From: Isosphaeraceae bacterium EP7
GTDB taxonomy: Bacteria; Planctomycetota; Planctomycetia; Isosphaerales; Isosphaeraceae
Direction: 5' to 3'
Assembly: GCA_038400315.1 (NCBI GenBank)
Contig: CP151667.1
Location: 4,661,174-4,725,173, forward strand
Length of the DNA: 64,000 nt
Made by a program: the position numbers and the translations under genes. This document shows positions 25,957 through 29,132 of this stretch, in pieces. The notes under the pieces are model-generated. The model was not told where the DNA came from. It worked only from the letters and a program-made list of their open reading frames with translations, and ran no database searches. Positions within the stretch are counted from its first letter, which is position 1; the number at the start of each line of letters is the position of its first letter.

Positions 25957-26397
25957 CGAGGCCCTCCGATACGCGAGCGGGTGCCCGCGAAACGTCGCCA
26001 AGGACATTGGCCTCATGGGCGAGAATTAGCCGCCGATCCCGTCTGCAAAGGCTCGATGAAACCGAGGGACGACGTGCCGATGGATGCAAGCGGATGATCA
26101 GTCAACTTGGAAGGCACCATGTTGGAGTCTGCCGCACGACCGTCCCGGTCTATTGCAGTCAGAGAGCTCTCGCTTCACTTGGCAGATTTGCAAGTTCCGA
26201 AGGGGCTCGTCAAGCCTTCTCATCGAAACTTGGCTGCTTTTGTGCGGGACAATGACAATTTCGACGCGATCAGTGTCGCCTCGTCGCTGGACGCTGTCGA
26301 TCAGCAAGACTCGGTAGAGCGGTTCCAATGGATTCCTTCCTCGGGTACGACGTCCTGGGTTGCCCGTCGTCGATTGGGGGTCGTACAATCGACCAAC
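25957..26397. other. Divergent intergenic region, no gene seen
   Basis: 441 bases between menC and the secreted repeat protein. The frame of the downstream gene stays open back to a TTG at 26107, but the extra residues look non-coding and precede a good signal peptide. Promoters for both genes should be here. Confidence 0.45.
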
Positions 26398-28236
26398 ATG
26401 AAGCGGAACGCACTCATCTTCGTCGTCTTGGTCGGTACGATTGGCCCTGGATACGTCCGGGCCCAGGATCGGCCCACATCGCGGGCCGCCGGTGAAATGC
26501 TCCTCAAATCGCCCGGCGGACATGTGCCCGGTCGATTGGCGACGTCAGAACGTTCGCGACTCAGGTTCTTGCCCGCCAGTGGAGCGGCCCCGATCACTAT
26601 CGAGCCAGGTATGGCAATCCAGAGCGAGCCAGGCATCGCCACGAGCAACAGTCATCCCGCGGCCTTTCGGGCATCCCTTGGATATGACCAACGGATTTCC
26701 GGGCGTCTCATCTCGCTTGATGAGGTTGGGGTCTCGTTCGAAAATCAACCCGGTCAGAAGCCACTGATGATGATCAGGGGTGGAGTTTCCTCGATTCTTC
26801 AGCGTGAGGGCGAGGTCCAGGTTCTCCTCGACGACTTCGAGTCGATCGATCCCTCACGATGGTCGATGCTGGGAACGGCCGAGGTTGACAAGGCCTTGCA
26901 CCTTATCGGAAAGGGTAGCCTGCTCCTGCCTGCGGGGGGGACCAGCCTGACGAGCCGCCTTGCCGAGCCCATCGCGGACGGACGCCTCGACCTTGCCTAT
27001 CATGACAGCGGACAGATTGTCGCTGGCCATGAGTGGTGCGTCGACCTCCTCTTTCGGGGCCGTTCAGGTCCTGAAATCATCCGAGTCGTCCCTGGCTGGG
27101 GCGACGAGAGCATCGGGGTGGAAAGCCCCGGTGGGCCCGCTCTCGCGGTGCAACGGCTTTCGCGGAAGCCCGGCTGGCATCGGCTCTCCGTGCGGTTCGG
27201 TTCCGAGCGAACTGACGTGTCGATCGATTCGGATGAGCTCGTCCACGGCAAGGGGCCCGGTGGGCCATTAGTTGAGGTCCGACTCTCAAGTCTCGTTGGC
27301 AATAATATTCCAGCCGCCAACGAGGGATTGTCTGCTCACGTCGATGACTTGCGGCTCGTCCGTTTCACACGGCCTTCAGCGGAGGTCGAGCTCGACTCGA
27401 GCCAGGACGAAGCTCGCCTGGTGGGCGGAGACCAGATCTATGGATCGATTGTTTCGGCCGATTCGTCTCGTCTGACGATGACGATGGCGAGCCGAACCAT
27501 CGAACTTCCCTGGTCCGAGACCGTCGGAATCAACTTCCGGCGCAGCCCGATTCAATCCAGGCCGGTCGAGGGGCCCATCGTCCTGGCGGAGTGGCGGCCC
27601 GTTTCCGGCCCTGCCGAGGACCTCGACGGAATCGACGGAATCGAGGGGGCGCTCGTCGGAGTATCGGACGTTGCCCTGACGCTGGAAACCCCATTCGCGG
27701 GCACGATCGTCGTGCCTCGTGACCGCCTGTCACGGCTCGAAATTCGCAGCGGATGGGCCCGCCGAATTGTCTTCGACTCTCACGCCCACCACCTGGGCAA
27801 CGAGGTCTCGAGCGAGCCTCCGAAACTTGACCCGCCCCAGCCCGAAGGGGGAACCCTGGAGCGTACCATTGAGCTCAAGGTCATCCCGGAAGGGCGGCCC
27901 GTCCTGGTCCTGGACGTGGTGCAGGTCGTCGGCGAGACGGGCAACATCAACTTCTCAAAGTTACTGGCGGACGGGCAGTTACGTACCGAAGTCCGGCTCA
28001 ATGGGGAGATGTTCGACACGATCAATCGTCATATCAAGACCAGCAACGAGACACCGGAGCGTATCCGCTTGCCGCTGCCCGACGGCCTGCTCCGGCCTGG
28101 CATCAATCTCATTCGATTCGATCAGAAGGGCCTCAACGGCGATCCGGACTATCTGGACGACCTGGGCATCCTAGCGATGGCGATGGAATTCGAGGTCCCT
28201 GCACCTGCCGACGAGGGCGGACGGGGCCGACCTTGA
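26398..28236 (+). CDS. Large secreted protein with LamG-like segment and repeated small beta domains
   Basis: 612 residues with a signal peptide (MKRNALIFVVLVGTIGPGYV, cleaved near AQD). Three copies of a short strand-turn unit are visible: SGRLISLDEVGVSFEN near residues 101-116, YGSIVSADSSRLTMTM about 350-365 ending IELPWSETV, and EGALVGVSDVALTLET about 415-430 ending IVVPRDRLSRLEI. Between the first and second lies a stretch beginning LDDFESIDPSRWSMLG, like a concanavalin-type/LamG fold. A C-terminal beta region (TIELKVIPEGRPVLVLDVVQ) follows. No catalytic motif. The stop overlaps the TTG start of the diadenylate cyclase gene by four bases, so the two are translationally coupled. Role unknown. 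Confidence 0.78.
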   Translation: MKRNALIFVVLVGTIGPGYVRAQDRPTSRAAGEMLLKSPGGHVPGRLATSERSRLRFLPASGAAPITIEPGMAIQSEPGIATSNSHPAAFRASLGYDQRISGRLISLDEVGVSFENQPGQKPLMMIRGGVSSILQREGEVQVLLDDFESIDPSRWSMLGTAEVDKALHLIGKGSLLLPAGGTSLTSRLAEPIADGRLDLAYHDSGQIVAGHEWCVDLLFRGRSGPEIIRVVPGWGDESIGVESPGGPALAVQRLSRKPGWHRLSVRFGSERTDVSIDSDELVHGKGPGGPLVEVRLSSLVGNNIPAANEGLSAHVDDLRLVRFTRPSAEVELDSSQDEARLVGGDQIYGSIVSADSSRLTMTMASRTIELPWSETVGINFRRSPIQSRPVEGPIVLAEWRPVSGPAEDLDGIDGIEGALVGVSDVALTLETPFAGTIVVPRDRLSRLEIRSGWARRIVFDSHAHHLGNEVSSEPPKLDPPQPEGGTLERTIELKVIPEGRPVLVLDVVQVVGETGNINFSKLLADGQLRTEVRLNGEMFDTINRHIKTSNETPERIRLPLPDGLLRPGINLIRFDQKGLNGDPDYLDDLGILAMAMEFEVPAPADEGGRGRP

Positions 28237-29132
28237 ACGTCCTGACTCGCAGCCTGGTCAAGCACGCACACGCGATCGCCCGCGAATCAGGGGCACGTAC
28301 CATTCTGCTGCACGCCGACGTCGTCGAGGAAGACGACGCCCTGGCTTCGCTCATCCAGGATGTTGATTTCCGGGTCGTCCTCGTCTCGCGAAGGGTAGGG
28401 TTCCAGGCCCCCCCGGGATGGGGTGAACTGTGCTCGATCGTCCGTGTGCCGGACATCCCGATGACACGAGCCGGCCAGATCAAGGTCGCGGTGCTGGTCG
28501 CCGCGGCCGAGGGTCTGATCACCATCGGTGACCGGATTCTCTGCCTGGGAGGCCAGGATAGCTCGGGGATCCTCGATACCCTGATGGTACTGGACCTGGG
28601 CGAGGAGATCGAACTGTTCGCGGCCTCCGCCACGACCCCCTTGCCGTCCGACGTGGCCCCGACGGTGTTCGAGCGGCTCCTGACCCTGGCCAGCGAGCTT
28701 GGCCTGGAAGGCCGAGAGGGGAAGTCGGTCGGAACCCTCTTCATTCTGGGCGATACGGATACGGTTCTCTCGCAGAGCCGTCAGTTAGTGATCAACCCAT
28801 TCCATGGCCATCCCGAGTCGGAGCGGAATGTCCTCGATCCCCGACTCGAGGAGACGGTCAAGGAGTTCTCGGCAATCGACGGTGCGTTCATCATCCGCGG
28901 TGACGGGGTGATCCTGGCCGCTGGACGCTATCTCACGCCGCAAACCGAGCTGGAAGTGCCGCTTCCGCGTGGCCTGGGGACGCGCCATGAAGCCGCCGCC
29001 GGGATTACGGTGAACTCGGACGCGCTGGCCATCTGCATCTCACAGTCAACCGGGACCGTATCCATCTTTCGCCACGGCCGGTTGATGACCGATCTGTCGA
29101 AGCCGAGGAAGCGTTCACCTCAAGCACTCTGA
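28233..29132 (+). CDS. DisA_N-domain protein, probable diadenylate cyclase
   Basis: 299 residues, starting with TTG inside the upstream stop (TTGA). Residues about 1-135 form an alpha/beta domain like the C-terminal domain of pyruvate kinase, which archaeal CdaZ/DacZ-type cyclases also carry. The DisA_N domain spans about 165-290: GTLFILGDTDTVL, NPFHGH, the catalytic DGA (216-218) in AIDGAFIIRGDGVILAAGRY, and GTRHEAAAGI, where the usual RHR reads RHE (251-253). These enzymes make c-di-AMP from two ATP. The substituted Arg normally contacts ATP phosphate, so activity is likely but not certain. The protein appears cytoplasmic, unlike its secreted partner. Confidence 0.85.
   Translation: MNVLTRSLVKHAHAIARESGARTILLHADVVEEDDALASLIQDVDFRVVLVSRRVGFQAPPGWGELCSIVRVPDIPMTRAGQIKVAVLVAAAEGLITIGDRILCLGGQDSSGILDTLMVLDLGEEIELFAASATTPLPSDVAPTVFERLLTLASELGLEGREGKSVGTLFILGDTDTVLSQSRQLVINPFHGHPESERNVLDPRLEETVKEFSAIDGAFIIRGDGVILAAGRYLTPQTELEVPLPRGLGTRHEAAAGITVNSDALAICISQSTGTVSIFRHGRLMTDLSKPRKRSPQAL

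Follow-up and report, generated by a model that had tools for sequence, protein, structure and literature searches.

A putative DacZ-type diadenylate cyclase with RHE in place of RHR in an Isosphaeraceae planctomycete

A predicted diadenylate cyclase (DAC) gene in this planctomycete genome raises the question of whether an enzyme that carries RHE where solved DAC relatives carry RHR can be expected to make c-di-AMP. The gene, hereafter DacZ-E, lies on the plus strand at positions 28233..29132 of the window (the whole 64,000-nucleotide stretch of DNA that was analyzed) and encodes 299 amino acids from a TTG start, the coordinates including the stop codon; the frame is open throughout. The preliminary description had reported this ORF with D216-G217-A218 and GTRHEAAAGI, and all of these elements are present where it had placed them, the DGA motif (residues 216-218) at 28878..28886 and RHE (residues 251-253) at 28983..28991, both on the plus strand. 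Its statement that the second conserved motif is R251-H252-E253 rather than RHR is read directly in DacZ-E. The TTG start is supported by the homologous starts of relatives and by a 4-nt overlap (TTGA) with the stop of the upstream gene. Of 29 relatives, 26 have a start codon at the homologous place, where M, V, or L precedes a variant of K-x-L-T-R-S; G199 and G200 have their nearest start a few codons further upstream, and that of G211 lies beyond the range examined.

Profile searches and structure prediction both point to a two-domain protein. The Pfam DAC family (PF02457) matched residues 157-283 with 81.2 bits (E 5.5e-23; cut-off 27), and DacZ_P (PF21755) matched residues 6-128 with 67.6 bits (E 1.1e-18; cut-off 27.4). 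In an AlphaFold2 model built from 31 sequences (mean pLDDT 80.7), residues 1-128 (28233..28616, plus strand) resemble pyruvate kinase C-terminal (PK_C) domains, with Z scores of 13.3-14.0 over 113-120 residues at 2.1-2.8 Å, and residues from about 133 to 291 (28629..29105, plus strand) resemble solved DAC domains, with the closest matches being Bacillus cereus 2fb5 (Z 16.8), Mycobacterium tuberculosis DisA (Z 15.4), and CdaA (Z about 14-15). The protein ends right after the DAC domain. The DisA_N core and the PK_C-like N-terminal part proposed in the preliminary description were thus borne out. The haloarchaeal DacZ equivalog NF041371 was the best among five NCBIfam hits, with 131.1 bits over residues 80-288, which is below its cut-off of 430. 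The NCBIfam models for CdaA, CdaS, CdaM, and DisA covered the DAC core only and scored far under their cut-offs, as illustrated by CdaA TIGR00159 (47.1 bits, residues 216-294 only; cut-off 188.8) and DisA NF010009 (28.3 bits, residues 207-283 only; cut-off 201). DacZ-E shares the DAC fold with CdaA, DisA, CdaS, and CdaM, but the solved relatives that were aligned carry RHR, and DacZ-E, having RHE, is not a member of these RHR classes. By its predicted layout, DacZ-E is a DacZ/CdaZ-type diadenylate cyclase. Phage sequences searched with the window protein gave 17 records, with matches to query residues 216-299 only.

The third residue of the motif proved to vary widely within this family. Among 33 archaeal DAC loci, it was M in 11, I in 10, L in 4, V in 3, A in 2, and H, S, and N in 1 each, and R in none. 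This sample comprised 33 of the 65 places found in the phylum of a Haladaptatus genome (three from G243 and the 30 best-scoring others), and for 10 of them the alignment spans fewer than 190 residues; these may represent other DAC layouts, some of them lacking room for a PK_C domain. The 23 loci aligning over at least 190 residues showed I in 10, M in 5, L in 3, V and A in 2 each, H in 1, and again no R. Among planctomycete loci detected by PF21755 (30 of 38 places read, including the RHW gene of the window's own genome), the residue was W in 12, R in 5, Q in 4, A in 3, K in 2, and L, Y, and N in 1 each, the remaining row (L026) being truncated before the motif and outside these counts. A further 78 named planctomycete loci show W, but the scan pattern demanded H or W, which makes them uninformative on variation. 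Across Planctomycetota the third place is therefore occupied by W, Q, K, A, R, L, Y, N, or E; apart from E, which is acidic, the third residues in DacZ-type rows are neutral or basic.

The residues around this position are far more constrained. In 121 aligned sequences (32 with E, 39 with W, 17 of lineage II, and 33 archaeal, with the 66-residue second row of L105 left out), D216, G217, G225, G247, G249, R251, and H252 were invariant, and S270 was kept in 120. Position 296 in the tail was the only E-specific difference, defined as a position where one letter fills at least 90% of the W rows and at least 80% of the lineage-II rows and a different letter is commonest in the E rows. The chromosomal DacZ of Haladaptatus carries RHM and is followed by a frame that appears MscS-like by eye, an arrangement also described for Haloferax volcanii dacZ, the product of which is reported to be active with manganese (PMC6741144). 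When AAA replaces RHR in M. tuberculosis DacA (PMC3328451), Bacillus thuringiensis CdaS (PMC4568413), or Mycobacterium bovis CdaM (PMC13022847), c-di-AMP synthesis is lost; these mutants alter all three residues and do not probe the third alone. The residue counts, the invariance of R251 and H252, and the RHM of the Haladaptatus DacZ together indicate that RHR is the motif of CdaA, DisA, CdaS, and CdaM, and that DacZ enzymes, as judged from their alignments, keep only R-H. Residue 253 is accordingly variable across the aligned DacZ family, within which RHE appears to be no anomaly, and since the position is apparently non-essential there, a glutamate would be compatible with activity. Of the preliminary description, the archaeal CdaZ/DacZ layout with RHE holds, but its view of RHE as a noteworthy departure does not, given the freedom of the third position in DacZ-type sequences.

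The glutamate is not peculiar to the window. A DAC was present in all 45 genomes of the window's order, with ten weak matches from the order-wide scan left unread. DacZ with RHE occurred in 32 of these genomes, all within the window's family, and DacZ with RHW in 39; 26 genomes had both, 6 had RHE only, and 13 had RHW only, some of these 13 assemblies being incomplete. No other third residue was seen among the DacZ sequences of the order that were read, the few RHR or RHS rows aligning over no more than the DAC core (66-74 residues). A maximum-likelihood analysis of 97 rows under a better model placed 31 RHE rows in one clade (SH-aLRT 100) nested in a planctomycete lineage whose members carry Q, K, A, R, L, or Y at this position (48 rows, support 98), and the chosen RHW rows lay apart from that lineage (25 rows, support 99). 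The initial grouping of the rows had used the motif, and a faster 100-row tree served to establish that the groups are also clades. It comprised the 32 RHE rows (including L074, which has fewer than 190 residues and was absent from the 97-row tree), the 39 RHW rows found in the order, and 29 rows from the phylum, and it placed all 32 RHE rows in one clade (support 100) and all 50 RHW rows in another (99). These positions suggest that two old DacZ lineages coexist in the window's family. Nine close RHE pairs (dS 0.21-0.32) gave dN/dS values of 0.014-0.187, similar to those of close RHW pairs, deeper values being set aside because dS was judged too near saturation. The substitution pattern indicates that the DacZ-E clade is under purifying selection. 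A sequencing error or gene decay as the origin of RHE was rejected in view of the presence of E throughout a 32-genome clade and by the low dN/dS in close pairs.

Comparison with described systems places DacZ-E closest in layout to the archaeal enzymes. Euryarchaeal DacZ, including H. volcanii HVO_1660, likewise combines an N-terminal fold proposed to be PK_C-like (PMC6741144, as far as the consulted text goes) with a C-terminal DAC domain and conserves D-G and R-H; in Haladaptatus, too, the third residue is not R (RHM and RHH, with RHN in a short frame). DacZ-E differs from these proteins in having E at the third place, in matching Pfam DacZ_P, which had matches in none of 14 control genomes (H. 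volcanii, Methanocaldococcus jannaschii, and Methanosarcina acetivorans among them), and in having no MscS gene among the scanned window neighbors, unlike H. volcanii dacZ, the H. volcanii comparison being made by description. Searching plasmids with the RHW paralogue returned two Haladaptatus records. M. jannaschii CdaZ (DacY), also compared by description, has the same PK_C plus DAC layout and is placed in one family with DacZ in the portion of the source consulted, which reports activity for CdaZ itself (PMC6741144). The RHW-type planctomycete DacZ shares both Pfam domains and the catalytic residues with DacZ-E but differs in its separate tree lineage, its W at position 253, and its neighborhood. 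The family, its layout, and its occurrence in planctomycetes are already in print, and Pfam already has DacZ_P. The preliminary description had presented a planctomycete enzyme as an extension of c-di-AMP signaling to a poorly studied phylum, which is not new: a 2019 study shows a DacZ/CdaZ tree with proteins from Planctomicrobium piriforme, Isosphaera pallida, and Rhodopirellula islandica and proposes a PK_C-like fold for close bacterial homologues of DacZ (PMC6741144). A literature search for PF21755, DacZ_P, or DacZ_N returned no paper naming them; among the titles and abstract openings searched, no experimental c-di-AMP study in planctomycetes was found, nor were activity data for any planctomycete DacZ. 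The literature covered, which did not include the DAC review most likely to mention them, gave no description of the RHE clade or the upstream gene.

Six genomes have RHE as their only strong DAC match. Three of the six are at least 92% complete (G203, 99%; G221, 92%; G223, 99%), and in G223 the RHW gene is only a remnant, a single 86-aa frame whose C-terminal part matches residues 220-274 of the 282-residue query. A PgpH-like gene (PF07698) was found in 44 of the 45 genomes of the order, including these three; the PF07698 match was absent from G224, an RHE-only genome that is 77% complete. If RHE were dead, the G203, G221, and G223 lineages would possess a degrading enzyme without a DacZ synthase. 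The RHE-only genomes with a PgpH-like gene are thus suggestive of an active RHE enzyme, bearing in mind that they are drafts and that the PgpH family could have other substrates.

The host genome itself carries further parts of a c-di-AMP pathway. Besides DacZ-E, it has a second DacZ gene, the RHW paralogue (G000:C1, about 6967000), one PgpH-like protein with 7TMR-HDED, 7TM, and HD domains, and one c-di-AMP riboswitch (G000:C1:6793400-6793545) scoring 87.4 bits against a gathering score of 38. This combination of DacZ genes, a PgpH-like protein, and a riboswitch points to a likely production and sensing of c-di-AMP in these bacteria, whichever DacZ is its source. Under the stricter filters of the order-wide scan, the riboswitch (RF00379) was found in 8 of the 45 genomes, which fall in five genera. 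All eight carry RHE, but no association between the two is drawn from this, the probability by chance being 0.049 even on the assumption of independent genomes. In G224 and G241, a long frame with many hydrophobic stretches, probably a membrane protein, directly follows the riboswitch and in G224 ends in a C-terminal Usp domain; family searches identified no class for this protein. In the host genome, three frames after the riboswitch were read, none of them convincing as its gene.

One gene in the neighborhood of DacZ-E is conserved. The upstream gene (26398..28236, plus strand) encodes a 612-aa protein that is probably exported, judging from a signal peptide recognized by eye, and its stop forms the 4-nt overlap with the DacZ-E start. 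In 29 of the 31 other RHE loci, a relative of this gene immediately precedes DacZ-E on the same strand; in the two exceptions (G214 and G228), contig ends cut just before DacZ-E, and a relative was located at the end of another contig in G228 and none was found in G214. The overlap occurs at the homologous start in 7 of the 29 loci, with gaps from a few nucleotides to about 150 elsewhere. Beside RHW genes the upstream gene was seen in none of 40 rows from 39 genomes (counting the 66-residue second row of L105). Within the order, 43 of the 45 genomes had a match to it, among them 12 of the 13 with RHW only, and in the 11 of these 12 whose surroundings were read, no convincing DAC lay beside it (best E 0.006). 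Phylum-wide, it matched 14 of 199 genomes, the window's own included, and the 13 others matched in parts only (E 1.3e-15 to 9.6e-4). The protein had no family over the cut-off in Pfam (best bPH_6, E 0.022) or NCBIfam, and a single-sequence structure model was useless (mean pLDDT 33). The single row returned when its profile was compared with solved structures (E 0.011) was taken as chance. Other flanking genes of the window (an enolase-superfamily gene, TPR, and MMPL) are not common to RHE loci. Scans returned a single weak promoter-like site (26360-26389), where 0.8 would be expected, and no terminator-like site.

We consider it highly probable that DacZ-E is an ordinary, active DacZ/CdaZ-type diadenylate cyclase that makes c-di-AMP. 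By analogy with solved DAC enzymes of other classes, the D216-G217 and R251-H252 pairs would bind ATP, and two DAC domains would meet head to head to join two ATP molecules into c-di-AMP; the N-terminal PK_C-like domain, given its Pfam name and fold, is probably regulatory. The host has two DacZ paralogues, and this second one probably feeds the same c-di-AMP pool as the RHW protein, a pool that the PgpH-like phosphodiesterase would degrade and that at least one riboswitch would read. For DacZ-E, catalysis, product, and regulation are what we infer. Against an active enzyme weigh the acidic charge of the glutamate, the inactive AAA mutants of other DAC classes, the score under the DacZ equivalog cut-off, the RHE-only G224 without a PF07698 match, and the 13 of 45 genomes, some incomplete, in which RHW but no RHE was found, which make RHE look dispensable where RHW exists. 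A rival reading draws on the charge change, which affects a motif described as essential for DACs of other classes, together with the presence of an RHW paralogue in 26 of the 45 genomes: DacZ-E could be a weak or dead paralogue that binds ATP, c-di-AMP, or the RHW enzyme and regulates the latter. The retention of the remaining catalytic residues, the freedom of the third residue in the family, and the six genomes without an intact RHW gene in the assembly (three of which reach at least 92% completeness and keep a PgpH-like gene) argue against such a pseudoenzyme, which we regard as quite unlikely. More improbable still, and very unlikely, is that residue 253 alters the site so that another cyclic or linear dinucleotide is formed; its one argument is the fixation of an acidic residue in the RHE clade, but no other active-site change emerged under the criterion used, and the host carries a c-di-AMP riboswitch and a PgpH-like gene.

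A further reading, compatible with an active DacZ-E rather than exclusive of it, treats the enzyme and the upstream exported protein as one unit, a dedicated c-di-AMP synthase with an output set by an extracytoplasmic signal sensed or carried by the upstream protein. The strand and position shared by 29 of 31 other loci, against 0 of 40 RHW rows, and the overlap in the window and seven further loci speak for this coupling. Its match in 12 of 13 RHW-only genomes, with no convincing DAC beside it in the 11 read, implies that the upstream gene does not need DacZ-E, and nothing evident connects the two proteins physically across the membrane; we hold the unit to be unlikely. With similarly low confidence, the RHE clade may be pictured as a specialized second synthase of this planctomycete family whose acidic third residue tunes activity and which is translationally coupled with an exported protein of no known family, through which a signal from the envelope would reach the c-di-AMP pool.

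Because the DacZ-type sequences read retain R-H alone, RHR should not serve to select active DACs. Together, the two putative synthases, the PgpH-like phosphodiesterase, and the riboswitch would give a coherent picture of c-di-AMP signaling in one planctomycete genome, and the conserved upstream gene offers a testable lead on the role of the second synthase.

The gene directly upstream of DacZ-E, the DacZ-type diadenylate cyclase of the window, encodes a probably exported protein of 612 aa (window 26398-28236, forward strand), for which a search for a family found none. Order-wide matches to this protein were present in 43 of the 45 genomes, and its gene lay directly upstream of the cyclase gene at 29 of the 31 other loci.

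Two genomes, G236 (locus L137) and G235 (L138:4617-5843), encode a DAC carrying GTRHSAGLGL, in which the third motif residue is serine (RHS). Because the L138 protein weakly matches CdaA_N, below the cut-off, its sequence suggests that this residue may also be variable outside DacZ. The dacZ copies on the Haladaptatus plasmids L139 and L140 carry RHH, and the genome containing L141 has three DAC matches in total. Two proteins of about 560 aa with a weak DAC domain, from genomes G199 (L132:3777-5453, forward strand; 30.7 bits, cut-off 27) and G240 (L133:4983-6674, reverse strand; read by motif, the score being from L132 only), retain DGA, with ART at the seeming place of the R-H pair, and are perhaps catalytically dead DAC homologues.

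The window's genome contains a c-di-AMP riboswitch (RF00379, 87.4 bits) at C1:6793400-6793545 (L263:3401-3546), and no convincing gene was found right behind it in the three frames read. In relatives G224 and G241, a probable membrane protein gene directly follows the riboswitch, with a C-terminal Usp domain in the G224 product.

DacZ_P also occurs within frames of approximately 480-540 aa (G022, G104, G193, G133, and others). A domain scan of a single locus, L032 of genome G126, revealed a fusion of PTS EIIA-2, DacZ_P, and DAC (L032:1000-2547, reverse strand), a possible phosphotransferase-controlled c-di-AMP synthase.
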